NCBI GenBank assembly: GCA_030641485.1
Contig: DAOWHJ010000154.1
Span: 1-40,145, forward strand
DNA: 40,145 nucleotides
Direction: 5' to 3'
Source of the DNA: Pseudomonadota bacterium
GTDB taxonomy: Bacteria; Desulfobacterota; Anaeroferrophillalia; Anaeroferrophillales; Tharpellaceae
Part shown: positions 13,907 to 39,382 of the stretch, piece after piece
How the letters are laid out: each line of letters begins with the position of its first letter
How positions within the stretch are numbered: the first letter of the stretch is position 1
Notes under the pieces: generated by a model
What the model saw: only the letters and a program-made list of their open reading frames with translations
Database searches by the model: none
Told to the model about the DNA's origin: nothing
Program-made: the position numbers and the translations under genes

Positions 13907-13909
13907 AAA

Positions 13910-15307: not shown

Positions 15308-15322
15308 AGGTAGTTTGTCGAT

Positions 15323-17513: not shown

Positions 17514-17539
17514 TCAAATTTTTTAGGAGCAAATGAACA

Positions 17540-18916
17540 GTGAAAGGAATGCACCATAAAGTAAAACGGGTACACTTTGTCGGTATCGGTGGTAGCGGAA
17601 TGTGCGGCATTGCTGAAGTGTTGCTTAACTTGGGCTATCAGGTTCATGGTTCTGATCTTAACCGAAGCCCGGTAACCGAAAGGCTCGAAAAACTTGGAGC
17701 CCAGATTGCATATGGTCATGCCCGGGAAAACCTGGGTGATGTACAGGTACTGGTTCGTTCAACTGCGGTTAAAGATGATAATCCAGAGGTTGTAGAGGCC
17801 CGCATTAGAGCAATTCCGGTAATCCCCAGAGCTGAAATGTTGGCAGAGTTGATGCGCTTAAAATATGGCATTGCTGTTGGCGGCACCCATGGCAAAACGA
17901 CTACGACATCAATGATTGCAACAATGCTCAGTGGCACAGACCTCGACCCCACCGTAGTTATTGGCGGTCGACTTAACAGTATCAACAGCAACGCCTGTCT
18001 GGGTGAGGGTGAAATTCTACTTGCTGAAGCAGATGAGAGTGATGGTTCGTTTTTAGCCCTGTCACCAATTATTGCGGTTATTACTAACATCGATCGTGAA
18101 CACCTTGACCATTATCGGGGTGGAATAGAAGAGATCGAGGACAACTTTGTTGCCTTTGCGAATAAAGTACCCTTTTATGGTCTTGTGGTTCTCTGTCTGG
18201 ACGATCCTCGGGTGCAGGATATTATCCCGCGCATAGGCCGGCGCATTTCAACTTATGGTTTTAGTCCCCAGGCAGATGTACGCGCCCTTGATGTCTCAAT
18301 TGAGGGGATGCAGAGCCGATTTAGGGTTATTGTGAATCGGGAAGAGTTGGGTGAGTTCACCATTGATATGCCGGGTCGCCACTATGTTCTGAACTGTCTG
18401 GCGGCAATCGCCACCGGCTTTGAACTAGGTTTGGAGTTTGCTGATATTCGGAAGCATCTTTCTGGTTTCGCTGGGGTTCAGCGTCGTCTACAAATTGTAG
18501 GTGAGTACCGGGGGGCATTGGTGGTTGATGATTATGGCCATCATCCAACCGAGATTCAGGTTACCCTTGAAGCCTTGCGTCAAGCATGGCCTAAACGGCG
18601 TCTGGTCACACTTTTTCAGCCGCATAGATATACTCGGACAAAGTATCTGTTTAACGACTTTCAGGTTGTTTTCAATGAGGCTGACATTTTGCTCATCACC
18701 GATATCTATGCCGCCGGAGAGCGTCCAATTGATGGTATCACCGGAGCCAGCCTGGCCGAAGCGGTCCGTCAACATGGACACAAACAGGTCCACTACCTGG
18801 CGGATCATGAAGCCTTGCGGGAATTTATTATAGCAAATGCCGAATCATCAGATTTGATCCTGACTATGGGGGCTGGTGACATATATCGCTTAGGCCATGA
18901 ATTAGTTAAGATGTGA
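17540..18916 (+). CDS. murC: UDP-N-acetylmuramate--L-alanine ligase MurC
   Basis: VHFVGIGGSGMCGIAEVL, VGGTHGKTTTTSM, DDYGHHPTEI, FQPHRYTRTK. Confidence 0.96.
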   Translation: MKGMHHKVKRVHFVGIGGSGMCGIAEVLLNLGYQVHGSDLNRSPVTERLEKLGAQIAYGHARENLGDVQVLVRSTAVKDDNPEVVEARIRAIPVIPRAEMLAELMRLKYGIAVGGTHGKTTTTSMIATMLSGTDLDPTVVIGGRLNSINSNACLGEGEILLAEADESDGSFLALSPIIAVITNIDREHLDHYRGGIEEIEDNFVAFANKVPFYGLVVLCLDDPRVQDIIPRIGRRISTYGFSPQADVRALDVSIEGMQSRFRVIVNREELGEFTIDMPGRHYVLNCLAAIATGFELGLEFADIRKHLSGFAGVQRRLQIVGEYRGALVVDDYGHHPTEIQVTLEALRQAWPKRRLVTLFQPHRYTRTKYLFNDFQVVFNEADILLITDIYAAGERPIDGITGASLAEAVRQHGHKQVHYLADHEALREFIIANAESSDLILTMGAGDIYRLGHELVKM

Positions 18917-19041
18917 CCCCATTTATGGGGGCGACAGCAAAGTTCGCCAATTTTCGCTGTGACTTAACTGCCAAGCCACAGTAAGGCGAATATTTACTAA
19001 AAAGATAACCCGTAACTTACGAATTTAATAGAGAGTCAATA

Positions 19042-19392
19042 ATGTTCCTAGAGTCATATTCTCAGAAAAGAGTAAGATCAGCAAGCAACTTCAAACTGTG
19101 GGTGGCTGTTACTCTCACTCTTTTGACTCTACTCATTATATCATGCTCGACCCCGGGAGGCCGGAGTGTCGAGGCGGTCTACGATGACGCGGTAATTGCG
19201 ACAAGGCTTAAAGGATGCCTGACAGAGATGATGGGGAGTAATGTGATCGGGATTGATGTTGATGTTTACCATGGGGAAGTCACCCTGCAGGGCCGGGTCC
19301 GGAGCCCAAATATGGAGAGCCGGGTAGTGGCCGTGACCGCTCATGTTCAAGGGGTGAGAAAAATAATTAACCTGCTTCATATAATACCTTAA
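19042..19392 (+). CDS. BON-domain lipoprotein
   Basis: Lipobox-like TLLIISCSTPG. BON-like core DDAVIATRLKGCL...NVIGIDVDVYHGEVTLQGRV...VQGVRKIINLLHI. Confidence 0.8.
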   Translation: MFLESYSQKRVRSASNFKLWVAVTLTLLTLLIISCSTPGGRSVEAVYDDAVIATRLKGCLTEMMGSNVIGIDVDVYHGEVTLQGRVRSPNMESRVVAVTAHVQGVRKIINLLHIIP

Positions 19393-19456
19393 AGCTGATT
19401 ATAGCCTAATGGGATTTTAGCATGTTTGAAAAAAACATCACTGACAAGGTAATGAG

Positions 19457-20371
19457 TTGATTAGGACTGAACAAAAGCATGAGTTACGCCAGCGTTTATC
19501 AGAGTTTATGACTGAGGAGGAACCGCTGGCACCCAAAACGGCATTTAAGACCGGTGGTGCCGCCGCAATCTACCTGCAACCTGCAGATTTGACTGAGCTG
19601 CTGCTCGCTGTTAAAACTCTTGCCGAACTTAAGCTCGGTTTTCTGATTCTTGGTGGTGGCCGCAACTTGCTGATTGCCGATGATGGTATTAGAAACAAAG
19701 TTGTAATCAGTTTGAGCAGAGGTTTTATGGATTATGAGATTGTCGGCTCGGACAAGCACTCGGTGATGATTCGTGCCGAAGCCGGGGTTTCTTTGGCGGC
19801 TCTGGTTAATTTAAGTGGAGTTGGTGGTTATGGTGGCCTTGAGAATCTGGCTGGGATTCCCGGGAGTCTAGGCGGCGCCATAGCCATGAATGCTGGAGCC
19901 TTCGGGAGTACGATTTTTGACCACTTGGCGGCGCTATGGGTGCTGCATGACGGTGGTCTTTGTTGGCGTTCGCCTGCGTCCCTGAACCCAGGCTATCGAG
20001 ATGGCGGTTTAGGGGGGCAGGATATTGTCGTCGCAGCTTATCTTATCCTGCCCCGCAAACCGGTTCAAGAGATCGTTGCTAAAGTGAACGAAATTCGGAG
20101 CCAGCGGTGGCGACGTTTGCCGCAAGGTGCTCATGCTGGTTCGGTGTTTAAGAATCCTGATGGAAATTTTGCCGGCCGCCTGCTTGAATCCGCAGGTTGT
20201 AAAGGGCTGCGTTGTGGTGGAGCTAAGGTCGCTGTGGAGCATGCCAATGTGATTGTGGCAGAGGATACGGCAACAAGCCAAGATATAATTGACTTAATGG
20301 AGAGCATGCAAGCTTCAGTTAGGCAACATTGTGGTACAATTTTGCAGCCCGAAATTAGAGTCTTTTCTTGA
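19457..20371 (+). CDS. murB: UDP-N-acetylenolpyruvoylglucosamine reductase MurB
   Basis: FKTGGAAAIYLQPAD, LGGGRNLLI, GGLENLAGIPGSLGGAIAMNAGAFG, AGSVFKNPDG. Confidence 0.94.
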   Translation: MIRTEQKHELRQRLSEFMTEEEPLAPKTAFKTGGAAAIYLQPADLTELLLAVKTLAELKLGFLILGGGRNLLIADDGIRNKVVISLSRGFMDYEIVGSDKHSVMIRAEAGVSLAALVNLSGVGGYGGLENLAGIPGSLGGAIAMNAGAFGSTIFDHLAALWVLHDGGLCWRSPASLNPGYRDGGLGGQDIVVAAYLILPRKPVQEIVAKVNEIRSQRWRRLPQGAHAGSVFKNPDGNFAGRLLESAGCKGLRCGGAKVAVEHANVIVAEDTATSQDIIDLMESMQASVRQHCGTILQPEIRVFS

Positions 20372-20403
20372 TTTATGATTGAAACTGCAGGAGGGGAGCA
20401 GAA

Positions 20404-21333
20404 ATGAAATTTACGCCAGGAACCAAGGTTGGGGTACTCTATGGCGGACTCTCAGCTGAACGCGAAGTTTCCTTGAAAAGTGGTAAGGCTGTGGGGCTGG
20501 CCTTGCAAGAGCTTGGCTTCATGGTCACCCTGATTGACGTTGACCGTGAGATTTTTACCAGACTTAAAGAGGCAAAAGTAGAGGTCGTTTTTATTGCCTT
20601 ACATGGTGCCTATGGTGAAGACGGCACAATTCAAGGGGTTTTAGAGTATCTACAGATACCTTATACCGGCCCTGGGGTAATGGCTAGTAGCATTGCCATG
20701 AATAAGGTGATGACTAAGAGGGTTTTGCTTTCGTATGGCATTATGACTCCCGACTACACAGTGCCAAGTGGTGTTGAAATTGAGGTTGAGGTGCCACCAG
20801 GAGGTTACCCTCTTGTGGTCAAGCCGGTTGCAGAAGGTTCAAGCTTGGGGATGAGTATTGTAACAGATGCTGGAGATCTGGAACCGGCTTTAATTCAAGC
20901 ACGGGAATACGGTCAGCAGGTTATGATTGAGAGCTATATTCCGGGCCTAGAGTTGACTGCAGCAGTACTCCACGGTGCAGCGCTGCCCTTGATTGAAATT
21001 CGGGCTCGTGGTGGGGTCTATGACTATAGAGCAAAGTACACCAAAGGTTTTTCCGAGTACCTGGTGCCAGCGCAAATTGACGAATCTATCACCCGTAAAG
21101 TTCAGGAGTTGGCCCTTGCCAGTGCCCGGGTTTTGGGCTGTGATCGCGGTGCCGTGCGGGTCGATTTCCGTCTTGATATGGAAAATAACCCATTTGTGAT
21201 TGAGATTAACACGGTGCCAGGGATGACAGAAACCAGCCTGTTGCCTCAGGCGGCAGAGGTCGGTGGGATGGATTTTATAGCCCTGATAGATCATATTCTC
21301 CAAGGTGCTGGTCTTGATTTGGCCCCGCGCTAA
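20404..21333 (+). CDS. ddl: D-alanine--D-alanine ligase
   Basis: VLYGGLSAEREVSLKSG, FIALHGAYGEDGTIQG, VKPVAEGSSLGM, FVIEINTVPGMTETSL. Confidence 0.96.
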   Translation: MKFTPGTKVGVLYGGLSAEREVSLKSGKAVGLALQELGFMVTLIDVDREIFTRLKEAKVEVVFIALHGAYGEDGTIQGVLEYLQIPYTGPGVMASSIAMNKVMTKRVLLSYGIMTPDYTVPSGVEIEVEVPPGGYPLVVKPVAEGSSLGMSIVTDAGDLEPALIQAREYGQQVMIESYIPGLELTAAVLHGAALPLIEIRARGGVYDYRAKYTKGFSEYLVPAQIDESITRKVQELALASARVLGCDRGAVRVDFRLDMENNPFVIEINTVPGMTETSLLPQAAEVGGMDFIALIDHILQGAGLDLAPR

Positions 21334-22222
21334 AAAAAGGGGGAACCAACGGTTACGAGCAGGAAATAGTCGTAAGGCTATCCAGCAGGCTCGCAACACC
21401 GGCGTAAAAAGTGGTGGTATACGTAAGGTTGCTCTGTTAATTTCGCTGGTCTGTTTTTTAGCTCTGGGCGGCAGTGCCTTGTGGCTCTGGTTGCCGACGC
21501 TGGTAAGTAATGTAGATGGTTGGTTAAAAGAGAGCGGCAGCTTTTTAGTAAGAGAGATCGTAGTTGAAGGCATTCATAGGTGTCACAGGGATGATATAAT
21601 TCAAGCTCTGAACCTGGATTCGGAGCAGCTGATATTCACATTTTCTTTGGTTCAAGCTCAGGCTCGAGTAGAGGCGCTACCGTTCATTAAACTGGCAATG
21701 ATTCGCCGCCGGTTGCCAGACTTGCTGCAGGTTGAGGTCGTTGAGTGCAAACCTCGGGCTCTGCTATATTTGGAGGATCTGTATCTGGTTGATGAAGAGG
21801 GGGTTGTGATGGCACGTGCCCCGGCAGGAGAGGTCTTGGATTTCCCAGTGATCAGTGGTTTTAGCTTAAATGAATGGCAGCAACGGCCCCAAGTTTGGCG
21901 GAGATTGCTTAAGAAGGCCACGAACCTACTCTTGATTTGGGAAGAGAGAGGTAAAGAGTGGCCGGAAAAGGTTGCTCAGATAGTGTTGGATGAAGTTTGT
22001 GGAGTAACTCTGTTTACAACGGGCAGTAATTGGGAGTTGCAATTGGGGTCGGAGAACTATTGTGAACGCCTTGAACGTTGGCGACAGGTTCTCGTGTTGT
22101 TGGGTGAGCGTGCATCATCGGTGAAATATTTCGATTGTGCCGGGGAGAGCTCGGTTGTAGCCGGGTTACGGCAGTTCAAAATAGAGGCAGATAAAAAGGC
22201 AGGGGAATATGGCCAGAAGTGA
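21305..22222 (+). CDS. ftsQ: Cell division protein FtsQ-like (POTRA domain)
   Basis: N-terminal TM segment followed by FLVREIVVEGIHRCHRDDIIQAL (POTRA); between ddl and ftsA. Confidence 0.88.
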   Translation: MLVLIWPRAKKRGNQRLRAGNSRKAIQQARNTGVKSGGIRKVALLISLVCFLALGGSALWLWLPTLVSNVDGWLKESGSFLVREIVVEGIHRCHRDDIIQALNLDSEQLIFTFSLVQAQARVEALPFIKLAMIRRRLPDLLQVEVVECKPRALLYLEDLYLVDEEGVVMARAPAGEVLDFPVISGFSLNEWQQRPQVWRRLLKKATNLLLIWEERGKEWPEKVAQIVLDEVCGVTLFTTGSNWELQLGSENYCERLERWRQVLVLLGERASSVKYFDCAGESSVVAGLRQFKIEADKKAGEYGQK

Positions 22223-23438
22223 ACAGATGGTGGTTGGTCTTGATTTAGGGACAACAAAAACTTGCGTCCTGGTAGGTGTTCAGGGGGAGACCGGGCTTGA
22301 AATTGTCGGTGTAGGAACTGCTCCTTCAATTGGTCTGCGCAAAGGTGTGGTTGTTAATTTGGACTCAACTGTAGAGTCCATTCGTCAGGCCGTGGCAGAG
22401 GCGGAAAAGATTTGTGGGCAGAAAATTAAGGTTGTGTATACGGCAATAGCAGGCAGTCATTTGCAAGGTATGAATAGTCACGGTATTATCGGGGTTAAGG
22501 ACCGGGAGGTTAGTAAGACTGATGTTGAGCAGGTTCTTGATGCAGCTCGGGCGGTAGCAATCCCAATGGATCGTGAAGTGATTGATACAATCCCTCAACA
22601 ATTTTTTCTTGATGATCAGGAAGGGGTGGTTGATCCTGTGGGGATGTCTGGGGTCAGGCTCGAAGTCGATGTGCATATCGTGACGGCGGCTGCAGCCTCA
22701 CTGCAAAATGTCTACCGCTGTTGTAATCGGGCCGGACTTGATGTGAAGGGGGTGGTATTGCAGCAGTTGGCTTCAAGCCGGGCTGTACTTACCGTCGAAG
22801 AGTGCGAACTTGGAGTGGTGTTGATCGATATTGGGGGGGGGACAACTGATATTGCAGTTTATGTTGGAGGGGCAATTTCCTACACTGCATGCCTGCCATT
22901 AGGTGGTAATCAGGTAACTAATGATATTGCACTTGGTTTACGGACCCCAATGGAAGCTGCCGAAAAAATTAAGCGACACTACGGATGTACAACTTCGAAG
23001 ATGATTGACTCAGAGGAGCCAATTGAAGTTCCAAGTGTCGGAGGGCGCCCGCCGCGCAAACTTCCACGCCAAATTCTAGGCGAGATTATAGAACCGCGGT
23101 TGCAGGAGATTTTTGAACTGGCAAATCGTGAGCTGCATAAGTCAGGGTTTTATGACCAGGTGGTTTCTGGAGTTGTTGTGACCGGCGGAACTGCTCTGTT
23201 GCCAGGGGCGGCAGAACTTGTGGAAAAAGTTTTTGAGCTTCAGGCCCGGGTCGGTTTTCCCGAGACTCAAGGTAGTGGTTTTGATGCAGTCAACAGCCCC
23301 ATCTACGCAACCTCAATAGGCTTGCTTAGATATGCTGCTGATGGACAGAATTCAAATCGAAACAGTAACGGGTTTAAGGGATTGGAAATGGGTGGAATTT
23401 TTGCTAAATTTACAGCTTTTATGAAGGATTTTTTTTAA
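22209..23438 (+). CDS. ftsA: Cell division protein FtsA
   Basis: VVGLDLGTTKTCVLVG, LIDIGGGTTDIAVY, amphipathic C-terminus FAKFTAFMKDFF. Confidence 0.96.
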   Translation: MARSEQMVVGLDLGTTKTCVLVGVQGETGLEIVGVGTAPSIGLRKGVVVNLDSTVESIRQAVAEAEKICGQKIKVVYTAIAGSHLQGMNSHGIIGVKDREVSKTDVEQVLDAARAVAIPMDREVIDTIPQQFFLDDQEGVVDPVGMSGVRLEVDVHIVTAAAASLQNVYRCCNRAGLDVKGVVLQQLASSRAVLTVEECELGVVLIDIGGGTTDIAVYVGGAISYTACLPLGGNQVTNDIALGLRTPMEAAEKIKRHYGCTTSKMIDSEEPIEVPSVGGRPPRKLPRQILGEIIEPRLQEIFELANRELHKSGFYDQVVSGVVVTGGTALLPGAAELVEKVFELQARVGFPETQGSGFDAVNSPIYATSIGLLRYAADGQNSNRNSNGFKGLEMGGIFAKFTAFMKDFF

Positions 23439-23574
23439 TAAATTAGAACAACATGCAAATTTAGGGTAGCTAATCCCGATCTCTTTCGGAAGATCAGTTT
23501 AGGTCCTCAGTTTGCTGAAATATATTGTTAGAATTAAGGTTTGGGCAACTTTAAAGTATTAAAGGGAGAGAGCT

Positions 23575-24855
23575 ATGACATTTGAATTTGAAGAGAGCGT
23601 AAATCTAGCGGCACAAATTAAAGTGGTAGGGGTCGGTGGTGGCGGTGGTAATGCCGTAAACAACATGATTCTATCTGGCCTTGAGGGGGTTGATTTTATT
23701 GTCGCCAACACTGATGCGCAAGACCTGAAGGCCTCACAGGCTGCATCCAAGATACAATTAGGAAGCCGGGTGACCAAAGGTTTGGGGGCTGGAGCAAATC
23801 CCGATATCGGGTGTAGTGCTGCCTTGGAAGATGCTGATCACATTTCAGAATTGCTGGCTGGTGCGGATATGGTTTTTGTGACCGCAGGTATGGGCGGAGG
23901 AACCGGTACCGGTGGGGCACCTGTTGTGGCTCAGTTGGCTAAGGAGGCAGGTTCGCTGGTGATTGGAGTGGCCACCAAACCTTTTAATTTTGAAGGCAAG
24001 AAAAAGATGCGTATAGCCGAAGCGGGGTTGGCAAAGTTACGCGAAAATGTAGATGCCCTGATCACCATTCCGAACCAGAGGTTGTTGAATACAGTTTGTA
24101 AAAATACAACTGCTGCCGATGCATTTAAAACGGTTGACGATGTATTGTTGCAGGCGGTTCGCAGCATCTCTGACCTTATCAATGTCCATGGTCATATTAA
24201 TCTTGATTTCCAGGACATTAAAACGATCATGGATAATGCCGGAATGGCTCTTATGGGGACGGGTATTGCAAGTGGAGAGAACCGTGCCCTCGAAGCCGCA
24301 CAGTCGGCAATTGCATCACCCCTGTTAGAGGATCTAAGTATTCAGGGGGCCCGCGGTGTGATTATTAACTTTACCGCATCTTCCGAGTTGACCCTGCATG
24401 AGATGGATCAAGCCGCGACATTGATTCAGGAAGAGGCCCACGAAGATGTTGAGGTGATCACCGGGTTTGTTCTTGATGACTCTCTGGGTGAGGATCTTCG
24501 CATTACAGTTATTGCGACCGGTTTTGATTCAGTTCAGGCTTCTCAGCCAGCGATTGCTGGAGTTGGGGCTAAGGGGCCGGGGTTAGGTCTTGCCGGAAGG
24601 TACCCAATTGGTACAGCCGTACGACGTGACAATTATGATCGTCCAGCTTTTCAGGTTCAGAATGATGAGGCTGCCGGAATGGTTTCGTCCTACGAAGCGG
24701 TGGACGCCGATCGCATGGTTAGCAAAGATCTTCAATTTGAAGATATTCAGGAGATACCAACTCTTATGAAAAAGGTAGTTGGTTCAGAAAGTGAGTTTGA
24801 CAGCGGGATTGATGATATGGACATTCCAACCTTTATTAGGCGTCAAATCAGTTGA
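23575..24855 (+). CDS. ftsZ: Cell division protein FtsZ
   Basis: KVVGVGGGGGNAVNNMI, GGGTGTGGAPVVAQLA, C-terminal peptide DIPTFIRRQIS. Confidence 0.98.
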   Translation: MTFEFEESVNLAAQIKVVGVGGGGGNAVNNMILSGLEGVDFIVANTDAQDLKASQAASKIQLGSRVTKGLGAGANPDIGCSAALEDADHISELLAGADMVFVTAGMGGGTGTGGAPVVAQLAKEAGSLVIGVATKPFNFEGKKKMRIAEAGLAKLRENVDALITIPNQRLLNTVCKNTTAADAFKTVDDVLLQAVRSISDLINVHGHINLDFQDIKTIMDNAGMALMGTGIASGENRALEAAQSAIASPLLEDLSIQGARGVIINFTASSELTLHEMDQAATLIQEEAHEDVEVITGFVLDDSLGEDLRITVIATGFDSVQASQPAIAGVGAKGPGLGLAGRYPIGTAVRRDNYDRPAFQVQNDEAAGMVSSYEAVDADRMVSKDLQFEDIQEIPTLMKKVVGSESEFDSGIDDMDIPTFIRRQIS

Positions 24856-25597: not shown

Positions 25598-28500
25598 CTA
25601 TTTCATGAATGCACCCCAAAGATCGTAAAGGAGCTGGTTACCGCCACCAGCACCGGGCTCAACCGCAACATATTCACCAGGTTCATAGACTTTGACCAGT
25701 ACATAAGCACTCTGGTGGCCGACAATAACAGCATCATGGGCTCGGGTGTAGAATGTATCGTGCTCTCCCAGCTTCCAGATTTCCGGCTCGGCACCAGTGT
25801 AGGGCAGGCGAATAATCGCTGCCGGGACCGGCTCTGTCGCATGAGCGTCATCGGAGCTATGGCCTGAATTGAGTTCGTAACGCAATACGAAAGCCTTGGC
25901 GAACCCACGACCGCTAAGATAGACATCTTCCTGGCCGCCGACGGTGAAGCCAAGAGCTGCCAGTTTATGAATTTTAAGTTCTTGCGGGATGTAAAAATGA
26001 CTCTTATCCATCCATGGGCCATTAACTACCTGTCTGGCGTATTCTCTTTCCTGCTCTTCCAGGGTTAACAATGCCGGGTCAACTCCGAAAATAGAGTCAC
26101 CTTTAACCGTGCCCTCAGAGGTCAGTGAGAAAAGGGCTTCTGCGTGATGGAGGCTCAATTTGAGAATGTCTTTCTCGCGGGCACCAAGGATACGCATGCC
26201 GTTAGCTTCAATTACATCAATATAATCAACCTCACCGTCAACAATAAAGAGACCATCCGGATTAGCCGGAACCATACCGTGTGCAGGGTCGTAACGCATC
26301 GCCCGGTTTTCATCTCTAAACCAAGGCGGAGCCCAAGGAACAAATGAGATGATCCGGTCAGTAACCCGAAGGGCACCGGCACTGTTGGCGACACTGCCAT
26401 GACAGTCGTTACATGACTTGGACCCTAGAGCTTCCTCTTTGGGTTTGATTCCATGGCTGCCAGAGAAGTAGTGAGCTGCAATGAAAAGGACTGGGTTCGG
26501 GTTGGTGCCTCCCTGTGCAATAATTACCTTCTTAAGAGATTCCTGCATGGCCTTGACATCTTCATCCCACCAGATGTCTGGAAACATATCGCCGGTGTGG
26601 TCAAAGAGGACGTAGCCGCTATCCTTCAGGATAACGCGGCCGACGTAAGGGTTCTGGGCCCAAGTCGGATCGTTTGCCGGGATCATAGCCATCTCCATGG
26701 GAGAGACCATGCCGAGTTTGGTAGGTTTCTTGTACTCTTTTATTGTGGCGTTGAGCTCTTTGAGGTAGATAATCCGCGCCCCAGCATAAGGCATTTCACT
26801 CATGTCGGCATCTTCTTGCGGGTTAGTGTCGACCCAGGTCATAACCGTAATCGGATTGCCTGGGACGATTTGTGGATAACCATTGAGACCGTTAGCATAA
26901 TAGAGTGGTGGGATTACTTCATTATCGGTCAGCTCAGTATACTCGAGTGGAATACCCATCGACTTCATGCCTTCGTAGCTGGCCTGGAGGAAGTATTTCC
27001 AGAAGTCAAATTTAAAGTTGGTCGGCATCCCGTTAACTAACTGACCCGGGTCAGACTCACCGTCCATAAAGAAATAATCAACCATTTGCGACTGAATGTC
27101 CATCGATTCCTGACCTTTACCGTCAGCATCAATGTGGTTCGCTACCATATTGAAGTGGGGAATCCCATAACCCGGTGAACAGGAGTAGACCGGTGAAATC
27201 GCGTAGGCTGGTGATGGGAATGCCATAACCGAATTGTCACCGCCTGGGAGGATGTTGTACCCCATCAGGTTGTCAAAGTTAGCATAGTAACCTAGGGTGT
27301 CATCAAAACAGCGGAAATTCCAGGTTTTCCGTTTTGGCGCATGACAGGTTTGGCAGGCAATCTCAGACAAGTGGCGCCCGGTGTTCTCGCCAAAAACTTC
27401 TTCATGCCGGACGGACGGGTTGTTGCCGTGACCCTCGCCACCCATGTGGCAACCTTCACAACTCTTGACTCGCGGGTTGGCATCAAGGTCGTTACGTACC
27501 ATATGGGCGGTATCAACTCCTTTTAGGAAGTTATGTTTATCTTCAACTGTGCCATTTTCACGTAGATGACAACTTCCGCAACCCATCCATTTACCCGACA
27601 TATGGACATCGTATCCACGGTCTTCAGTGTCGTTAGTGAAATTGACGTAGTGGCCATTTTTTACATAGTCAGCTGAAAAACCAAGGTTGTATTTTCTTGA
27701 ACTGGTCCATTCGCTGTTGCCGTGATCTTTAGTCATAACATGGCATTCACCGCAGACTTTAACCCACTTCCAGCTTTCACGATCATCCTGGCCGCCAAAC
27801 ATCTCGGTCATCGGCAGGGCTCCATCTTCACCGATGTCACCAAGATTGTAGAAGACCTTAGGCGTCCAGGTGTCACCATCGCGATCAATCCGTAAATATG
27901 TAACCGGGGCTCCGTCATGGTTGAAATCAAGACCCATGAGTTCGCCTGAAGGCATGTAGTTAAAAAAACCGGGCAGGTAGTCATGCATGACCGGATTGAT
28001 TTCCCCCTCCGGAATTTTTCCTTCCTGGAGATCCTGAATTACTAATGCCAGGTCAAGCTGACCGGTCTCCGGACTGATATAGCGGTAGTCACCCTGCATA
28101 ATCAGACCCATGGCATACATGGTCGCACTTAGTTCGGTACCGTTTTTACCAACGTACGGAATCCCTTCACCTTCAATCAGGCCGGAACGGATATAGTCAC
28201 GGGTAGAAGCATGAAAGCTATCCCAGTTAGTGTAGAATTTGCCTGGCTCATAAGCTCTTAATGCATACGGAATCGGTAACATCATATCGTTTTCAAACTG
28301 GATTTTGTAAGCAAAGATGAAGTCGTTGAAGAAGAGACCCATCAACATATTCATATCGGCATCGGGCGGTAGAAGACCCTTATCCTTCATGTACTGTAAA
28401 AAACCTTGAAAAAGTTGACCGATGGCCGCCTGAGCTGCACCGAGGCGACCCATTTCGTCCATAACTCCATTCGGGTTAGCGCAGTACTCCTCACGCAGCA

Positions 28501-29623
28501 TACCGGTTTTTGCATCCCAGATTTTGGCGATGTTGGGGCCGTAGAGCGCGAAAGGAAGATTGATGCCGTTGGCTTCGATCTGCTTTAAGCCATCAACCCA
28601 CATCTGCATCATTTCACCAACAATCTCTTTCGGTAGTTGAGCTAAAGCCATCATCGGAGTTGGGCGACCCATACGTTGGAGGCCGTCACTATAGTAGAGA
28701 GTAGTGCTGTTCTTCAGGCCAATCTGGGTTGGCATCCCAAAAGAGATCTTCTGGACCTTGAAGTTTTCGTCACGTTCAGCAAACATTAGCATCCGGGGAC
28801 GGTAGGTCTTGACCTTCAGACCATCAGCAGCCCGGTAACCGTAGGGGCTTTCCGGGTCGATATGACACATCAAGCAGTCGGCTTCCACAGTTCCCGATTT
28901 TGACCAATCATGCTTTTTCGGTGCACCGAGGTTCTTCATGGTCTCTTCGATGGTTTCTGCACCGTAAATTGCCATGGTGATGTCGTTAACACTGTAGTTG
29001 TAGAAATCACGGTCGTAGCTGTGCTCTTCCACCAGGCTTGGATCACCGAACTGGGTAAGAGTTCCATCCTCACCGAAAATTCCCTCGACCGGACCGCCAC
29101 CAGGATGGCACGATTGGCAGCTCTCAATATGTTCAGCGGTGCCCATATCGAAGAAGTAGGGTTTATCTTCTGAGGTGAAGGGTTGACGGTAATCACCACG
29201 CTCTTTTTTTGCCGCCACCTGGCGGTAAGAGGGGGGTCACCACGCACCGAATTGCCCCGGACTTAAGAGATGTCCGTAGGCATTGGCAAGGTATTTGTAA
29301 AGCGGGTTATCATCCATGTTTTCACTGACCCAGGTATCACTGATTCCTTGGCCGTCAACATTAGCACCTTCACGAAAGTGGTAGGCTTTGGTGACTGCAT
29401 GGTAGTCATGGCATTTGCCACAAGTCTGTTTCGGGCTGTAGGGCGGGCCCGCCTTGTAGATCGAGCCGCCTTCAGCGGTGACAATTTCGCTATCATCAAG
29501 TTGATCAATAATCCGGTTGCCCTGACCGTCATACAGGGTTACCGGGGGATGGGCCGCCGCCGCGAGCATTGGTACCAATGCCAGCAGGAGTGCTCCAAAA
29601 ATCATGGGTAAAAACTTCTTCAT
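25598..29623 (-). CDS. Predicted selenocysteine-containing octaheme c-type cytochrome, 1341 aa (TGA at 29237-29239 read as Sec); annotated in the ORF track as 128 aa + 1206 aa
   Basis: 128-aa ORF (29623..29237) and 1206-aa ORF (29218..25598) share one reading frame; only TGA plus 6 sense codons (PPSYRQ) separate them. The N-terminal part has a signal peptide (MKKFLPMIFGALLLALVPMLAAAA) and CGKCH. The C-terminal part has 7 CXXCH (CQSCH, CLMCH, CGECH, CGSCH, CEGCH, CQTCH, CNDCH) but no signal peptide. Confidence 0.72.
29201..29239 (-). promoter_or_regulatory. Candidate bacterial SECIS element immediately 3' of in-frame UGA
   Basis: Minus strand: UGA CCCCC CUCUU A CCGCC AGGU GGCGG CAAAAA AAGAG. 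Perfect 5-bp apical stem with AGGU loop starting 17 nt after UGA, and a second 5-bp stem CUCUU/AAGAG. Confidence 0.7.
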
Positions 29624-29700: not shown

Positions 29701-30603
29701 CTACTGCTTGCGCAGCACGATGCCCTTATGACACTTCATGCACTCACCGGTTTCATGGCAAACATTACAGCTCCGGAAGTTACGGTGGGCCGCTTCAGCA
29801 TGTCCGTTTTCACGCTGGTATGACATCCAGTCGCCGCGCTTGTGCGAGACCGGTTTCTGGTGTTTGTGGCAATCGGTGCAGTAGCCAGCAACATGACATG
29901 TAGCACAAACCCGGCGATCATGAGTGGCTTCAACCCCATGGCCTGAGGTCTTCCAGCCAAAGTTGTGGTCTTTTGGTTTCTCGGTCTGATGACATTTTTC
30001 GCAGAAAGCCTGGCGGTTGGAATGACAGCAGTAACAGGAGTCGGTAAGTTTGCTGGCAAAGCCATGCTTTGCATCCCAATCCTGGCTATGGTTTACCGGT
30101 GCTTTCTCAGCCCGGAGTTCTGTGTGGCAAGCCTCACAGTCGGTTGGGCCATCTTGGCTTTTGTGGCAGTTAAGGCAAAGGGCCATAGTTGGTCCTTTGT
30201 CGAAACCACGATCTTTATTAATGGCGTAGTGACATGATTCACAGTTGAGCTCAGTATGGGCTTCGTGGCTGAAAATCAGGTCGGCAAAGCCGATCGGTTT
30301 TGCCACACTCTTGATTTCGTAATCTTTGGCAGCGCTTTCGGGGGTATGGCAGAGTAGGCAGCCAGGTCCCGGTTCGTCAACATTGAAATCATGGCACTCT
30401 TGGCAAGTATCCATGGTTGCCGCTGTTCGGTTGCCGTCAGTATCAGTTTTGTGGCAGGTGTCACAACTGGCTTCCTGCTCGATGATATGGAAGCGGTGAC
30501 TAAACTTAAGACCCACTGATGATTTACAGGCTCCGAGAATCAGAGCTCCGAAAACTAAAGCCGCAAGTCCTATCCAGAGTAATCTTCTTTTTTGCTTGCA
30601 CAT
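29701..30603 (-). CDS. Dodecaheme c-type cytochrome, predicted lipoprotein
   Basis: Twelve CXXCH motifs counted in 300 aa; lipobox-like GALILGACKSS after an N-terminal hydrophobic segment. Confidence 0.92.
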   Translation of the reverse strand: MCKQKRRLLWIGLAALVFGALILGACKSSVGLKFSHRFHIIEQEASCDTCHKTDTDGNRTAATMDTCQECHDFNVDEPGPGCLLCHTPESAAKDYEIKSVAKPIGFADLIFSHEAHTELNCESCHYAINKDRGFDKGPTMALCLNCHKSQDGPTDCEACHTELRAEKAPVNHSQDWDAKHGFASKLTDSCYCCHSNRQAFCEKCHQTEKPKDHNFGWKTSGHGVEATHDRRVCATCHVAGYCTDCHKHQKPVSHKRGDWMSYQRENGHAEAAHRNFRSCNVCHETGECMKCHKGIVLRKQ

Positions 30604-30669: not shown

Positions 30670-32067
30670 TTAGAAATCAAGGTCTAGAGTTACTGTTAGT
30701 GAATTGATGTGATCAACCCCGAGCTCATCTTCATAGAAGTCATCCTGAGCGTATTCGTAAGCCAGTTCTACCCGTGAATAGGCACAAATTTTGTAGGCGA
30801 CTGCAGCCCGGTAGCTCGTTGACGCTTCGTTTTCAAGCAGGCTGTTAACATCTTCACTTTTATGGTAGTAGCCTAAAGAAATCTCTAATGTCTGAAAGAG
30901 TTCCTGCTCAAGGTCGGCAAACCAGGAGGTCGATTCGCCTTCGTAGAATTTATCACGCTTTTCCCACCAATGGCTGTATCCAGCACTAAAGTGCGAACCA
31001 TGGATACCGAAACCCTCATGGAGGTCAAATCCAGCAGTAATTCGGTGGAAGTCAGTATTGTAAATGTTTTCATCGTCACTGTGTGAGAGGTTGCGGTTGC
31101 AGTAACGGCCAAAAACGGTGAGTCCGTGAACGAAGGGGATGGGCTGACTTACGCGGACATCGAATTGTAGGTAGCTCTCTTCCTGCATCAGGTAGAGACG
31201 GTTCATTTCTGAGCTTAAAGCTTCATCAAGAGTATAGCTGAAGTCGAAAAGAAAATCGGCCTCGGAAGCGATGTCGTAACGTCGATAGATGGAAAAATCA
31301 AGGACCGTTCCGGTTGCCGCAATCGTGGTTTCAACCCCACCGTCAATAAATCGAGTATGGTCATTAATGAAGGCGACCCGGCTGCGTAATTTCCAAGAAT
31401 CTGAAGGCTGCCAGTAGAGGGCAGTTTCCCAAGAGGTCTCTTCAAAAATTACCGCATTTAGATCAATTGCAAGGCCAGGTAAAGGGCGAATTCGTAAGTT
31501 GGCACCACCAATTCCGCTCGGCCCAAGGTCATCGTAATGTTGGGTGATGAGCCCGCCGAAGGCCTCAATCTCAAGCCCTAAAAGTTGCGGTAGGTCGTAG
31601 CGGGCCCAGAGTCCGTCAAATTGGATGTTTTCAGCCCCATAAGCATACTGGCGACCGGCTCTTACTGTGAGTGCGTCAGTAAAGAGGCCACTCTTTTCTA
31701 GGTAAGCGTAATAACATTCAAAATCCTGCCGATGGCTGCCACGGCTATCGGTGTAATCCTGAAAAATCGAGCCCGAGCGAGTGCCATCAAGATCTTTGGC
31801 GTAGGTCACCATAGTCGAGAAGCTTAAGCCCTTGTCCTGCCAAATAACGTCAGCAGAGAGGGTCTCGAAAAAATCTTGGTCACTATTTTCATCTGTAACC
31901 ATATAGTCTGCCGGACTGTCTGACCACTGCAGTCTATACTCTGTGGTGCTGCGTAACGAAGCCTCCGCACCGCCTAATTCCAGAGCTGAAACGGGGGGTG
32001 TCAACAGGCAACATCCGATTATCAGTCCGGCTACAATCCTAAGTTGCCGCCATTGTAATCCAGCCAT
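30670..32067 (-). CDS. Predicted outer-membrane beta-barrel protein (porin component of a porin-cytochrome conduit)
   Basis: Signal peptide, alternating amphipathic strands rich in aromatic residues, terminal strand SLTVTLDLDF ending in Phe; adjacent to multiheme cytochromes. Confidence 0.8.
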   Translation of the reverse strand: MAGLQWRQLRIVAGLIIGCCLLTPPVSALELGGAEASLRSTTEYRLQWSDSPADYMVTDENSDQDFFETLSADVIWQDKGLSFSTMVTYAKDLDGTRSGSIFQDYTDSRGSHRQDFECYYAYLEKSGLFTDALTVRAGRQYAYGAENIQFDGLWARYDLPQLLGLEIEAFGGLITQHYDDLGPSGIGGANLRIRPLPGLAIDLNAVIFEETSWETALYWQPSDSWKLRSRVAFINDHTRFIDGGVETTIAATGTVLDFSIYRRYDIASEADFLFDFSYTLDEALSSEMNRLYLMQEESYLQFDVRVSQPIPFVHGLTVFGRYCNRNLSHSDDENIYNTDFHRITAGFDLHEGFGIHGSHFSAGYSHWWEKRDKFYEGESTSWFADLEQELFQTLEISLGYYHKSEDVNSLLENEASTSYRAAVAYKICAYSRVELAYEYAQDDFYEDELGVDHINSLTVTLDLDF

Positions 32068-33679: not shown

Positions 33680-34057
33680 TTAGGACTCCCGACTCAAAGT
33701 CATGCTTATAGTGCCCGCTTCATTTTCTTCGTTGGTTAGGAGGAAGCCCTGTTGAGCTAAAGTGTCCTTAACCACGTTGTAGGCATAGCGTTGATTTAAG
33801 GTGTCCATGAAAGTAGTTTGGTCAACGTCCTGAATCGAGTCCCAGTCAGCGACGACATCGTAGGTTTCTCCGTTAAAACGGAAACCGATGTCACAACCAC
33901 TTTTTGTCGGGATAATGAGGTCAGCTTTCTCTTTTTTCCAGAGCCAGCCCTTGGCTTTGAGTTTTCCCTCCTGATATTCTAGTTCCATGTCGCTGATCGC
34001 CTTTTTTAAAAAAACTTTGTCAGCAATTTTACTTTTAATCTTGGTGAAGTGTGACAT
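33680..34057 (-). CDS. DUF1257 / Ycf35-like protein
   Basis: MSHFTKIKSKIADKVFLKKAISDMELEYQEG...DIGFRFNGETYDVVADWD...LNQRYAYNVVKDTLAQQGF matches the DUF1257 pattern. Confidence 0.8.
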   Translation of the reverse strand: MSHFTKIKSKIADKVFLKKAISDMELEYQEGKLKAKGWLWKKEKADLIIPTKSGCDIGFRFNGETYDVVADWDSIQDVDQTTFMDTLNQRYAYNVVKDTLAQQGFLLTNEENEAGTISMTLSRES

Positions 34058-34127
34058 GACATCTCTCCGAATTATTAATGTTAGTCAAACTGTGGGGTTA
34101 TACCTGATATGGAATCAGGCCAACCAG

Positions 34128-35645
34128 CTACGACTCGCTGTTTGCTTTTCGGGTTCTTTGCGCGGCCCAGGCTTTGAGCCCATCAATTTTTTCGCTCATT
34201 AAGCGTGAAATTGGGATGATTTCACTGACACTGGCAAGAACATCAGCTTCAGTAAATTCACGCTGATTGTCGTCAAATGCGTTAAACATTGCGTCATAGA
34301 TAATCTGCTCAATTTCAGCACCACTATAGTCGGTGGTCGCATCTGCAAGTTTTGTGAGGTCAAACTGGCGGATTACAGGGCGCACCTTTTCAAGCAGGAC
34401 CTTGAAAATTGCTTGGCGCTCTGAATTTGAGGGGAGATCGACAAAGAAAATTTCGTCAAATCGACCTTTACGCATCAACTCTGGAGGGAGTTGGGCAACG
34501 TCATTGCCGGTTGCAATAATAAAGACTGGTTTAGTTTTTTCCTGCATCCAAGTCAAAAAAGTTCCTAAAATACGAGCTGAAGTGCCACCATCACCGGCTG
34601 AGCCGGAACTGCCCGCAAAAGCTTTTTCAAGTTCATCGATCCAAAGAATGCAGGGGGAGATAGTTTCAGCCAGATTAATCGCCTGGCGTAGGTTCTGTTC
34701 AGATTCACCGAGGAGGCTGCCAAAGACCTTACCTAAGTCCATTCTTAGAAGAGGTAATTTCCAGAGCCCGGCAGTGGCCTTGGCAGCCAAGCTTTTACCA
34801 GTACCCTGGATGCCAATAATCAAAATCCCTTTCGGTGACGGAAGGCCGTAATCTTTGGCTTTGTGCGTGAAGACCTGGCTGCGTTTGCGCAGCCACCCTT
34901 TAAGATTTTCAAGTCCGCCAATGTCATTTAGGCTTTCCTGAACCGGAAAGAATTCTAGGATTTCACCTTTTCTGATGATGCCTCGCTTTTCCAGGAGAAT
35001 AATTTCAATTGCGCGCTCATCAATAGACCCATGGGTTATGATGATCTTGGAAAATAGATTCTTGATGTTAACCATCGACAGGCCCATGGTCGATTCGATA
35101 ATTTTCTCTTTTAGTTGAGGCGTGGGTGGTTTTCCTTGGGCCGCACTTACGACAATACTGTCAAGTTCTTTCTCGATCTCGGAGTAGCCCGGAAGTTCAA
35201 GTTCAAGTTGGCAAATGTCTTCGCGTAATTCAATGGGTAAGGTTGGGGTCGGGGTGGTCAGGACAATTGTTTTTTTTGTGAACTGAAGATCATGGTTGAG
35301 GTTCCTGAGGGATCTTAAAATGATACTTTCGCGAAAATGGAGATGAAAATCACGGAGAATAAAGAGAGCGTTACCTTTAAATTTCTTGATCTCCTGCAGA
35401 CAGGTGATAGGGTCAGCCCGGTCGCGATTTTTGATTCCGCCGAGGTCACCTTTGAGCGGGCTGAAACCATCACCCAAGTCCCAGACGATGATATTTTTGT
35501 CTTTGAAAAGTGGAGATTCACTCAGCATTGAGTGGAAGCGAGCCTCTTCATAAGTGATTATGTTTATCAGTGAATGGTTGCTGCGAATGGTTGTGTTAAG
35601 GCGCTCAAGAAAGTCCATATCATCCTCTATCAATAAGCTATCCAC
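34128..35645 (-). CDS. AAA family ATPase, Ycf46-like
   Basis: GILIIGIQGTGKSLAAKATAGLWKLPLLRMDLGKVFGSLLGESEQNLR (Walker A), CILWIDELEKAF (Walker B), RKGRFDEIFFVDLP. Confidence 0.9.
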   Translation of the reverse strand: MDSLLIEDDMDFLERLNTTIRSNHSLINIITYEEARFHSMLSESPLFKDKNIIVWDLGDGFSPLKGDLGGIKNRDRADPITCLQEIKKFKGNALFILRDFHLHFRESIILRSLRNLNHDLQFTKKTIVLTTPTPTLPIELREDICQLELELPGYSEIEKELDSIVVSAAQGKPPTPQLKEKIIESTMGLSMVNIKNLFSKIIITHGSIDERAIEIILLEKRGIIRKGEILEFFPVQESLNDIGGLENLKGWLRKRSQVFTHKAKDYGLPSPKGILIIGIQGTGKSLAAKATAGLWKLPLLRMDLGKVFGSLLGESEQNLRQAINLAETISPCILWIDELEKAFAGSSGSAGDGGTSARILGTFLTWMQEKTKPVFIIATGNDVAQLPPELMRKGRFDEIFFVDLPSNSERQAIFKVLLEKVRPVIRQFDLTKLADATTDYSGAEIEQIIYDAMFNAFDDNQREFTEADVLASVSEIIPISRLMSEKIDGLKAWAAQRTRKANSES

Positions 35646-35823
35646 ATAAATTAAAAGACATTGCCTTGATTTGATCAGCTAAATTTTGGTTGCCAGTCAA
35701 ATTTAAGAGTAGTTCTTCATGGTTTTGTTCCAGGCCCCAGGCGCAGATCTCGCCGTCATCACTGATTCTGATATGGATTTTGGGACTAACATCAGAGGGC
35801 GTCTGCTCAGGATCTTTCTTCAT
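35638..35823 (-). CDS. Small 61-aa protein of unknown function
   Basis: Translationally coupled on both sides: 4-nt overlap with the upstream Hsp70-like gene and 8-nt overlap with the downstream AAA gene. Confidence 0.65.
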   Translation of the reverse strand: MKKDPEQTPSDVSPKIHIRISDDGEICAWGLEQNHEELLLNLTGNQNLADQIKAMSFNLCG

Positions 35824-37337
35824 TCCATACGCACCGATTTTTTACGTTTCCAGATAGTTTGATTGCGGCGTAAATCTTTTACCGTAATCAGGAGGTCACG
35901 GTTTAGACTTACATCAAAGGTGATTTCCAGGCGTTGTTCATTGTCCAGAGCCGGCGGATCTAAGGGGATGATCTCCGGTCGAGCCTGGTTGATGAATGAT
36001 TGTTGCTCATCGCCTAAATTCTCCTCCATCTGGATACGTCCGGCATCATCAATGACAATTTCTCGGTCGCTGCTACTTTCAGGGCGGTCCATCCGGATGA
36101 TGTCAAGTTCAACTTCAAGCTGACCAACAAAAAAGCCATTCGCAACAATACTCGTAATGCCATTTTGTGTCGGGTATGGTGTCCCTTTGGGGACAATTAT
36201 GTCATAGCGGTAGCCATCGCCCTTGGCGGTGCGACTCCGAATTGCATAGTTGGCTTTAATCGTGGCCTGACGCCCGCCCTTTTGCAGGTACTTTAAGGCC
36301 CCAATCGGGATAGCATCGTGGGTTCTGTGGCTTAAAAGTTTAGGTCCGAAAAAGTCTCTCATGATATCCTGGTAGTAAGGGGTTGGTAGACTCAAACCAC
36401 ACCCCAGTACATATGCGACGTTATCAAAGGTGACACCAAAACCTGAAGCCAGGTCAAAGAGGTCGCGCAGGAGCATCCGCAGCTCTTCGCCGTAACCCTT
36501 TTGATCGAGCAACTCATGGAGATCGTTGCGAGTTAAGGAGAGCTCAATGCCGTCGATCGTTTCACGGTAGTTAGGGTTGACGTTGAGTTTGCCCCTTATT
36601 TCCCGGGCTTTTTTCATGCTGAGCGGAAGTTTGTCGGCAAGAGAGTCGTGGATTACCTTGTCAATATCTACGCCACCGTAGTTTTTGTGCATACTGCAGA
36701 TGATCACACTTTGGAGCCTCGGCTCACGGTTGCTTTCGACAATCTTAATCAAGTAAAAATCGATAGTCGTGTAGCCGAACATGAGATAGACTAAATGCTG
36801 GTCAATTTGGCTGGCGAGATCGTATGCTAAGAGCGCGCAGACGGCTTCATCCACAATCTTGTAATTAATTAAACCGATCCTTAAGCAGAACTCCTCAATA
36901 GTAGAGGCAAAAATCTGGAAATTTAAGGGTTCAACAATGAAGACTATCATTGCCACCTGATCTTTACCGTAGAGCTCGTGGATACGGTCGATAATATTTA
37001 TCAAAAGATCGGCTGCCGCCTGAAAAGTGCTGATTTCCTGGTCCCCAATAATTCTGGGCAGGTACTGCTCCTTACCAATGTACTGTTTCATGTATCTGAA
37101 AGTTGCCGGAGAGCGGAATTTTTTGTGAGCAAAGACCTCTTGGCCGCAATAAATACGGTCCTCATAGCAGATCATCGCCGGGACCAAGTGGATCTTCTCC
37201 CGCCCTTTTGGGGTTTTGATTTCGACTGTAGTCGAAATGTCACCTAAATGAACGGATTCGATCACACCGCTTTTTTCATCCTGGCTGTAGATCTGCAGGT
37301 TGACGTTGTTGAAAAATATTGAGACAGTTTTGGCCAT
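35820..37337 (-). CDS. Hsp70/DnaK-like actin-fold ATPase (divergent)
   Basis: LVPAMICYEDRIYCGQEVFAHK, YKIVDEAVCALLAYDLA, HKNYGGVDIDKVIHDSL and LSLTRNDLHELL, an Hsp70 NBD-like arrangement, then a substrate-domain-like ITVKDLRR. Confidence 0.78.
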   Translation of the reverse strand: MAKTVSIFFNNVNLQIYSQDEKSGVIESVHLGDISTTVEIKTPKGREKIHLVPAMICYEDRIYCGQEVFAHKKFRSPATFRYMKQYIGKEQYLPRIIGDQEISTFQAAADLLINIIDRIHELYGKDQVAMIVFIVEPLNFQIFASTIEEFCLRIGLINYKIVDEAVCALLAYDLASQIDQHLVYLMFGYTTIDFYLIKIVESNREPRLQSVIICSMHKNYGGVDIDKVIHDSLADKLPLSMKKAREIRGKLNVNPNYRETIDGIELSLTRNDLHELLDQKGYGEELRMLLRDLFDLASGFGVTFDNVAYVLGCGLSLPTPYYQDIMRDFFGPKLLSHRTHDAIPIGALKYLQKGGRQATIKANYAIRSRTAKGDGYRYDIIVPKGTPYPTQNGITSIVANGFFVGQLEVELDIIRMDRPESSSDREIVIDDAGRIQMEENLGDEQQSFINQARPEIIPLDPPALDNEQRLEITFDVSLNRDLLITVKDLRRNQTIWKRKKSVRME

Positions 37338-37354
37338 TGATAGCTCTGGTTTTG

Positions 37355-39382
37355 TTAACCTTTAAGTTTCCGGACCTTTAAAATTCTTAACTCACGAGTT
37401 TGTGAGGCCTCATTGAAGACCAAAAGTTCACGGCTGTTGCGGGTTATTTGGCTGATACGTTTGAGCACCTTATCACGCAAGCTGGAAAAATGGGATTGCC
37501 CGCGAATAGAGTAAATAATCTGGTTTAGGATTGGTAAATTTTCAGTCTGGTCAAGTTCACCTTCGGTTTCAAGTAGTCGATCAAAAATTGCGGTGATTGC
37601 TTCTCTGAAAAAACCGCTGTAACGTCGGGTCCGATGTACTACTAGCGCAAAACAATCACTGCCGTCAACCTCGATTTCAGAGAGTAGGTGCATGGTTAAG
37701 AGTAGGGGGAAATCACGCGGGTCAGAGGTGCTCTGGCTGTTGCCTGGGCTCAGCATCAGTTTGACTAACTCGGTTGGTTGTTGCTGAAGAGATGTGAACA
37801 GTTCAGTCTGGCTTGGAGCGGTTGCCATAATCGCATGGGTTACCATTTTTTTTATGGTGAGGTTTGAAATTTCAGGATGTTGCTGAAAAAATTCAGCTAA
37901 AGCGGCCGACATTTTTTCCAGGTCCTGACCTTTGGTCAGGCGTTCCTTGATCGTTAGTTTGCGTTTTTCGTCGCGGTCTTTAAGTAGATCCAGAAGAGTG
38001 CCGATGTCGGAGCTTTTGAGCTGCGGAGAGATGAGATTTAAGAGACGGTATGAAAAACTCCAGTCAATGTCGTTGATAAGGGTTAAAATATGGTGACGAA
38101 TTTCATAGCGGTCTGCGTGGCGGCACATAAAGAGAGCGAGTTCACGGTAGTGCGGCTTTAAGACTGGGCTGGATGTTTTTTTCAGAATTTCAACCCATTT
38201 GTCACTGTCGCCCAGTGCGGCCAGGGCTTGAAGTATTTGAGGGTAGAGTTCAATTTTCTCCGACCATTGACTCAAAGAGTCTGCAATTGTCCGGTTCTCT
38301 CCCGGCCATTTGGGGCCCGCAAGGGCGTGAAAAACAGAGTGGAGTTCTTTCTCTTTGTCGGTTTTTGCCATTATGCGGTAGAGGGCTTGCAAGGCTTCTG
38401 GAGTGCGCATGTGACCCAAGGCAGCCAGGGCCTTTTGTCGTTCCTCAAGATTGCCCTGCAGGGCTCTTTTTTGCAGGAGTTCAATCGCTTCTGCTGTCTG
38501 ACACCAGGCTAAATCTTCTAGTGCGGCCGCTCTTTTTTTCCGGCGCCATGATTTTCCGGCCTGGAGTAGTTTTTGATAGCCGTTTGTATCTTGGAGGCGG
38601 GCCAAAGCCCCGGCGGCGGCGGGAATCTCATCAATAAGACTGATAAGGTTTGCTTTGCAGCCTGAAAGTTGGAGGCGACCAGCTGCCCGGGCCGCAGCTT
38701 CGGTTGTTGGTGAGCTGGTTGTCAGTAAGTTTGTTACAAATTCATCAATCTGGGTTTTAAGGTCAGGTTCTATCGGTAGTCCGATAAGGTCTAAAAGTTC
38801 CGGCCTTTTTTTGACCAGAGCAAAGTCATCTTTCAGGAGCAGATCATTGAAAAAGGTGTCTGGATACTGTTTTTTGAACTGGGTTAAAGCGGATAATCTG
38901 GTGTCAGGTTCAGGGATACTCAAGAGCAGATTCAAGGTGAGTTCTGGGGGGAATATTCTGATGGCAGTGGCGGTCGCAGCATCGACGGCCTGGTTACGGC
39001 TGAGTAGAGAGTGAAAGTAATTGAAAAAAGAGGCTTCTGGATGATTGCCAGAGAGTGGTTTTTTGAGCTTGTTAATCTCGCTGTGATTACCTTCCGGATC
39101 GTCGACCCCAATTTTTTCCAGAGCCAGGAGCAGGAAATGGCTACCCCCTAAAAACCAGGCCGCAGCCAGGATCAGGTGCAGGTTGATGTCACTAGCACCG
39201 TTAAGGCGGCCTGCCATCTTCAGGCATAAGGTCTGGGCTTGTTTATACTCTCGTGAAGAGCGGGCATAGTTTTGCAGTATTACTTGTGTTTGTTGCAGGA
39301 GATTGAGAACCCGCCAGCGCAGTTCCCAGTTCTCTGCCAACAGATCGTCAATTATATCGGGTGAGGGGACCAGCTCTCTCAT
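37355..39382 (-). CDS. HEAT-like repeat protein of unknown function
   Basis: 675 aa, alpha-helical; repeated segments such as LEDLAWCQTAEAIELLQKRALQGNLEERQKALAALGHMRTPEALQALYRIM. Confidence 0.7.
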   Translation of the reverse strand: MRELVPSPDIIDDLLAENWELRWRVLNLLQQTQVILQNYARSSREYKQAQTLCLKMAGRLNGASDINLHLILAAAWFLGGSHFLLLALEKIGVDDPEGNHSEINKLKKPLSGNHPEASFFNYFHSLLSRNQAVDAATATAIRIFPPELTLNLLLSIPEPDTRLSALTQFKKQYPDTFFNDLLLKDDFALVKKRPELLDLIGLPIEPDLKTQIDEFVTNLLTTSSPTTEAAARAAGRLQLSGCKANLISLIDEIPAAAGALARLQDTNGYQKLLQAGKSWRRKKRAAALEDLAWCQTAEAIELLQKRALQGNLEERQKALAALGHMRTPEALQALYRIMAKTDKEKELHSVFHALAGPKWPGENRTIADSLSQWSEKIELYPQILQALAALGDSDKWVEILKKTSSPVLKPHYRELALFMCRHADRYEIRHHILTLINDIDWSFSYRLLNLISPQLKSSDIGTLLDLLKDRDEKRKLTIKERLTKGQDLEKMSAALAEFFQQHPEISNLTIKKMVTHAIMATAPSQTELFTSLQQQPTELVKLMLSPGNSQSTSDPRDFPLLLTMHLLSEIEVDGSDCFALVVHRTRRYSGFFREAITAIFDRLLETEGELDQTENLPILNQIIYSIRGQSHFSSLRDKVLKRISQITRNSRELLVFNEASQTRELRILKVRKLKG

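Follow-up and report, generated by a model that had tools for sequence, protein, structure and literature searches.

In the window, as we call the whole stretch of 40,145 nucleotides that was analysed, two minus-strand open reading frames separated by a TGA together resemble one multihaem c-type cytochrome. The locus thus raises the question of whether the TGA ends a protein or encodes selenocysteine (Sec) within a longer one, and of what the longer protein might do.

Results

One reading frame across the TGA

The gene and the parts of its predicted product are as follows.

25598..29623 (-): predicted Sec-octahaem cytochrome gene, 1341 aa via TGA read-through; stop codon TAG at 25600-25598
29552..29623 (-): signal peptide, predicted cleavage AAAA/HP, read from the sequence; invariant His25-Pro26 follows
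29408..29422 (-): haem 1 site C68-H72 (CGKCH), the sole CXXCH upstream of Sec
29237..29239 (-): in-frame TGA, codon 129, predicted selenocysteine; TGA in orthologues, Cys (TGC/TGT) in homologues
27653..27670 (-): D652-x-V-K655-N-G657 between haems 4 and 5, corresponding to Asp150/Lys153 of octahaem tetrathionate reductase (OTR)

The ORFs at 29623-29237 (128 aa, ATG start) and 29218-25598 (1206 aa, GTG start) lie in a single frame, and the TGA at 29239-29237 is the only break between them. Translation of 29623-25598 confirmed what a sequence-only reading of this DNA had proposed: both ORFs share one frame, the upstream part supplies a signal peptide and an eighth CXXCH, and the downstream part holds the other seven. 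The read-through product starts with the signal peptide (MKKFLPMIFGALLLALVPMLAAAA / HPPV) and places the predicted Sec in the context SPGQFGAW-U-PPSYRQVAAKK. The GTG "start" of the longer ORF falls inside the SECIS-like hairpin described below.

Alignment of 15 full-length orthologues (type A; the labels A, A2, B, C, D, E and F were coined in this analysis, A2 being a relative of A with 38-42% identity) showed that all eight CXXCH motifs, His25-Pro26 and SPGQ-x-G-x-W-U-PPSYRQ-x-AAK are invariant. His25 (29549-29551) directly follows the predicted signal peptide; the mature N-terminus may therefore be His, a possible metal or haem ligand. An AlphaFold model of residues 25-1135, built with the 15 orthologues, reached a pLDDT of 34 and was discarded, and the orthologue profile matched none of the solved structures.

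Conservation of the TGA and its exchange for cysteine

The TGA was kept in all 24 deduplicated type-A orthologues that cover the site, with identities as low as 50%. Orthologues from the window's class (22 genomes) and from named MAGs, at about 50-86% identity, all have it where the site is covered. In a phylum sample of 396 genomes, every type-A match spanning the site likewise had TGA. Since the same in-frame TGA recurs in every orthologue spanning the site, it is neither a chance event nor a sequencing error; no sign of an isolated nonsense mutant was seen among these 24 different genes. One related locus (L029) belongs to 'Candidatus Tharpella aukensis', and the same contig occurs in G010, which is listed as the window's genus. 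Two type-A genes (L037, L044) lie in MAGs labelled Thermoplasmata and Methylomirabilis, which are possibly binning errors.

More distant homologues with about 30% identity (type C), which carry 17-19 CXXCH where the N-terminus is covered, had TGC or TGT at exactly the Sec column, with the frame continuous across the site. Cys was also found there in a few homologues beyond type C, and a type B homologue of about 940 aa has an in-frame TGA of its own. Two divergent homologues of about 600 aa (L089, L135) have Ser in this column, so a chalcogen at the position is not universal; L136 apparently has Phe, in an uncertain alignment. These comparisons show that coding continues through the TGA and that selection has favoured Sec or Cys there.

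A SECIS-like hairpin downstream of the TGA

29212..29225 (-): SECIS-like hairpin CCGCC-AGGU-GGCGG, 11 nt after the TGA; supported by fold, frozen synonymous codons and covariation

The claim that a SECIS adjoins the UGA drew support from three sides: the hairpin itself, codon usage across it and covariation between families. In type A the hairpin has five pairs, a loop of AGUU or AGGU, and an onset 11 nt past the TGA. It thus lies just 3' of the TGA and has G and U in its apical loop; no SECIS family in Rfam matched it. Codons +4 to +8 (Tyr-Arg-Gln-x-Ala; TAC CGC CAG.TG GCG) showed zero synonymous variation among 24 type-A genes, against background codon entropies of 0.9-2.2 bits for these amino acids, and of all windows along the gene, the ten under the strongest constraint lay at the TGA. 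The Leu codon TTG at the hairpin was kept even in distant relatives, apparently from G+C-rich organisms.

Across families, four of the five pairs were altered on both sides in a compensatory manner. Covariation in the stem was 0.42 versus 0.10 in shuffled alignments, and none of 500 shuffles reached it. Pairing was found in 92% of cells among 20 distinct 18-mers, a figure that leans towards structure because the rule by which the 18-mers were chosen seeks AGNT and pairing; three poorly pairing type-E sequences were restored to this set, and two Sec-OTR sequences without an AGNT loop were excluded. The single-sequence fold was only mildly stable (z -1.5). These patterns indicate that the hairpin is under selection at the RNA level.

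Selenocysteine machinery and the predicted decoding of UGA 129

SelA is present in the window's own genome, whereas SelB and tRNA-Sec were not found in that assembly, which is 61.65% complete; its tRNA-Sec matches proved on inspection to be ordinary tRNAs. The expected Sec machinery was thus recovered in the own genome for SelA, and not for the other two components. Within the window's class, SelB occurs in 20 of 22 genomes and tRNA-Sec in 18 of 22 at a stringent threshold. SelB was also present in all of 20 further genomes of the phylum, chosen for carrying members of the superfamily described below.

Could the TGA be a true stop, with two proteins made from one conserved transcript, perhaps through regulated termination? 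Gene calls do list two ORFs, and a like doubt has been raised about ExtKL, which yielded no SECIS (PMC1914089). The downstream part would then be a protein with seven CXXCH and no signal peptide. Moreover, conservation crosses the TGA (SPGQ.GAWUPPSYRQ.AAK), homologues with a Cys codon have one unbroken frame, and the hairpin appears to be selected as RNA, all of which makes a stop very improbable. The chance is slimmer still that UGA stands for Trp or some other standard amino acid, or that the TGA is a nonsense mutation or a local error of sequencing: homologues have Cys at the position, not Trp, the TGA is common to 24 different genes, and selenocysteine machinery is present. In addition, TGA is the normal stop of 10 of the 26 listed window genes, so UGA has not been reassigned genome-wide. 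Pseudogene formation, sequencing error and genome-wide reassignment of UGA were all rejected.

The window cytochrome is therefore almost certainly a selenoprotein, as judged from comparative sequence evidence, and UGA 129 would be the codon at which selenocysteine is inserted. The sequence-only reading had proposed an octahaem cytochrome with Sec, encoded in a porin-cytochrome operon, and this held up on the conservation of the TGA, the exchange for Cys, the hairpin, and the Sec machinery of the genome or its clade.

A superfamily of predicted Sec octahaem cytochromes related to OTR

Types B, D, E and F (L078-L098, L131-L134, L048, L070-L077) were observed across Desulfobacterota; they have a SECIS-like hairpin, and their Sec falls between haems 1 and 2. 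In each of the TGA-containing octahaem types A, B, D, E and F, exactly one CXXCH precedes Sec, and when types B, D, E and F were aligned together, Sec fell in one column. Profile comparison linked type A to B/D/E/F (100%, E 4e-62) and B/D/E/F to OTR over the whole OTR length (99.1%, E 7e-19). Direct comparison of the type A and OTR profiles aligned only haems 4-7, so the link between the two needs the intermediate types. The motif between haems 4 and 5 reads D-x-V-K-x-G in type A, D-x-V-K-H-G in OTR and D-x-K-K-x-G in nearly all others; its D-x-x-K is found in all types and corresponds to Asp150 and Lys153 of 1SP3. Mowat et al. are said to have found in 2004 that Lys153 ligates the catalytic haem of OTR.

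The window protein scored 32.3 bits against TIGR04315, below the curated cut-off of 375 bits, which makes it a distant relative and not a member of that family. Its eight CXXCH follow in the family's order, with D-x-x-K-x-G after haem 4. The same two haems flank the Cys or Sec, which stands 10 residues before haem 2 in OTR (Cys64) and 40 residues before it in the window protein. Profile alignment did not place Sec129 on Cys64. In OTR itself, about 30 of 77 above-cut-off TIGR04315 matches in the phylum sample (e.g. L056, L060, L061, L066, L067) contained one in-frame TGA. In five such Sec-OTR members the TGA stands at NNF/NSF-U, aligned to Cys64 of 1SP3, and the majority of genomes in the window's class have a Sec-OTR. 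These results indicate that the window protein is a distant homologue of OTR. The earlier reading did not include the OTR homology, the location of Sec between the first two haems or the breadth of the superfamily.

The predicted conduit operon and its surroundings

Two genes precede the cytochrome gene on the same strand.

29701..30603 (-): dodecahaem c-type cytochrome lipoprotein, 300 aa, 12 CXXCH; MtrA-like conduit subunit
30670..32067 (-): putative outer-membrane β-barrel (porin subunit), 465 aa; directly upstream in type-A loci with intact flanks

No Pfam family matched the 465-aa protein over its cut-off, and its barrel nature is read from the sequence. The order is β-barrel, 12-haem lipoprotein and, last, the Sec-octahaem gene. 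Both partners lie ahead of the Sec gene in 21 of the 23 type-A loci compared, a set that includes some identical contigs counted twice; of the two exceptions, one is cut after the cytochrome and one at the Sec gene. The same order is seen in A2 and in type F, where the lipoprotein has nine haems. Adjacent barrel and multihaem genes that are conserved together, as in porin-cytochrome conduits, were thus found at the gene level, and Pfam gave an MtrC/F domain II/IV match in the trio. No barrel or lipoprotein neighbours were seen at the four loci inspected from types D and E, two of each, so the conduit is not universal in the superfamily.

Upstream of the trio (33680-39382) lie genes for a HEAT-repeat protein, a 505-aa protein that matched no Pfam family and an AAA+ ATPase whose identity in relatives is 88-92%; they are conserved within the class and not at distant type-A loci. 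An apparent cell-wall/division (dcw) cluster at 8081-24855, with ftsA- and ftsZ-like genes at its end, adjoins the conduit genes. Elsewhere, at the loci L048 (G016:C18) and L049, type B (Sec) and type C (Cys, 17-19 haem) cytochromes are accompanied by propeller-like repeat proteins, several multihaem proteins and a large barrel-like protein. These clusters recall Oet-type conduits (PMC10553843).

Discussion

Proposed function

The three genes at 32067-25598 would encode a porin-cytochrome conduit in the outer membrane, whose last subunit is a selenoprotein. Electrons from the periplasm would pass through the 12-haem lipoprotein within the β-barrel to the octahaem cytochrome of about 1340 aa. 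UGA 129 would be decoded as selenocysteine by SelB together with the hairpin that follows the codon. Placed between haems 1 and 2, the Sec would most likely sit at a Lys-ligated catalytic haem, in the role of Cys64 of OTR, and the enzyme would reduce a substrate, probably sulfur-containing, at the outer surface. We consider this overall scheme, an outer-surface reductase with a catalytic Sec/haem site, likely. The assembly and topology, the proximity of Sec to haem 2, the substrate and the direction of electron flow are all inferred. Catalysis would take place at the haem 2 site, and a sulfur compound as substrate is suggested only by analogy: Beggiatoaceae have a relative of OTR that reduces both tetrathionate and nitrite (PMC6449678), and a sulfur acceptor was proposed by the Tharpellota authors for a different multihaem protein (PMC9213671).

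Sec might also be non-catalytic. It would then be an axial ligand of a haem, or a redox relay, and the protein would do no more than pass electrons along the conduit to minerals, other carriers or partner cells. It is common for porin-cytochrome conduits to end in a surface cytochrome that lacks a specific active site and hands electrons on, and the protein's size, its conduit context and the Pfam MtrC/F domain match would fit such a role. Its weight per haem, by contrast, is estimated at about 18 kDa, which is very high, as in catalytic multihaem proteins; this measure has been used to separate catalytic from electron-transfer multihaem proteins (PMC7096707). The D-x-x-K motif of OTR is retained, every type has Sec or Cys at a constant position between the first two haems, and the TGA of OTR members falls at Cys64. 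A purely electron-transferring protein therefore seems unlikely, and we favour a catalytic Sec.

Wider significance

A broader proposal, which we put forward tentatively and to which we give somewhat less than an even chance, is that the widespread superfamily (A, A2, B, D, E, F and Sec-OTR), mostly split by gene calling, consists of terminal reductases with a haem-Sec active site, that A, A2 and F are wired to outer-membrane conduits, and that the missing respiratory reductase of Tharpellota is found here. If true, an active site that combines haem with selenocysteine would represent new redox chemistry. Members of the wider group are found in many Desulfobacterota families and readily escape notice, since their annotation ends at the TGA. 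The window belongs to Tharpellota, and its genus includes 'Ca. Tharpella aukensis'. A study of Tharpellota found no terminal reductase and screened CXXCH genes for candidates (PMC9213671), which makes the Sec-octahaem conduit a testable candidate; the Sec-OTR of most class genomes is another. The Sec-octahaem cytochrome may thus be the missing respiratory enzyme of Tharpellota.

Comparison with known systems

It had been cautioned that related Sec cytochromes may already be described, and this is the case: as a predicted kind, Sec multihaem cytochromes are known from ExtKL, with Sec after five haems, and from Sec-OTR. A 2026 inventory of 119 prokaryotic selenoprotein families includes as multihaem cytochromes ExtKL, a TIGR04315 entry and a CXXCH-containing barrel-type protein, and lists the Sec form of OTR as annotated in GenBank; the window family is absent from it (PMC13188914), and most of the wider group of such cytochromes is unlisted. 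The open full-text literature on octahaem proteins and selenocysteine yielded nothing closer, subscription papers and NCBI records being outside the scope.

ExtKL of Geobacter (GSU2937-2936, NF040886) is, like the window protein, a predicted Sec multihaem c-type cytochrome split by gene calling, and its cluster includes an outer-membrane porin (PMC5877670, PMC1914089, PMC6148476). It differs in its size of about 50 kDa and in having five haems, all before Sec, whereas the window protein has one haem before its Sec. Membership in ExtKL was rejected on this haem count and on the lack of an NF040886 match at E 0.01. In 2007, neither a SECIS nor Cys homologues were found for ExtKL (PMC1914089).

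With OTR (TIGR04315; S. oneidensis 1SP3) the window protein shares the order of its eight c-haems, a Cys or Sec in the stretch from haem 1 to haem 2, and an Asp-x-x-Lys-x-Gly motif between haems 4 and 5. Unlike OTR, it is about three times larger, with about 370 haem-free residues between haems 3 and 4, and its Sec motif is GAWUPPSYRQ instead of NNFU. It is also encoded in a porin-cytochrome trio, whereas Shewanella OTR has been described as a soluble periplasmic enzyme (PMC6449678).

The trio resembles MtrCAB and other porin-cytochrome conduits (Geobacter OmaB-OmbB-OmcB, extABCD) in combining a barrel, an MtrA-like cytochrome and a large multihaem partner. It differs from them in that the 12-haem subunit is a lipoprotein, and the large partner, which has an ordinary signal peptide, is an octahaem protein resembling OTR and predicted to contain Sec.
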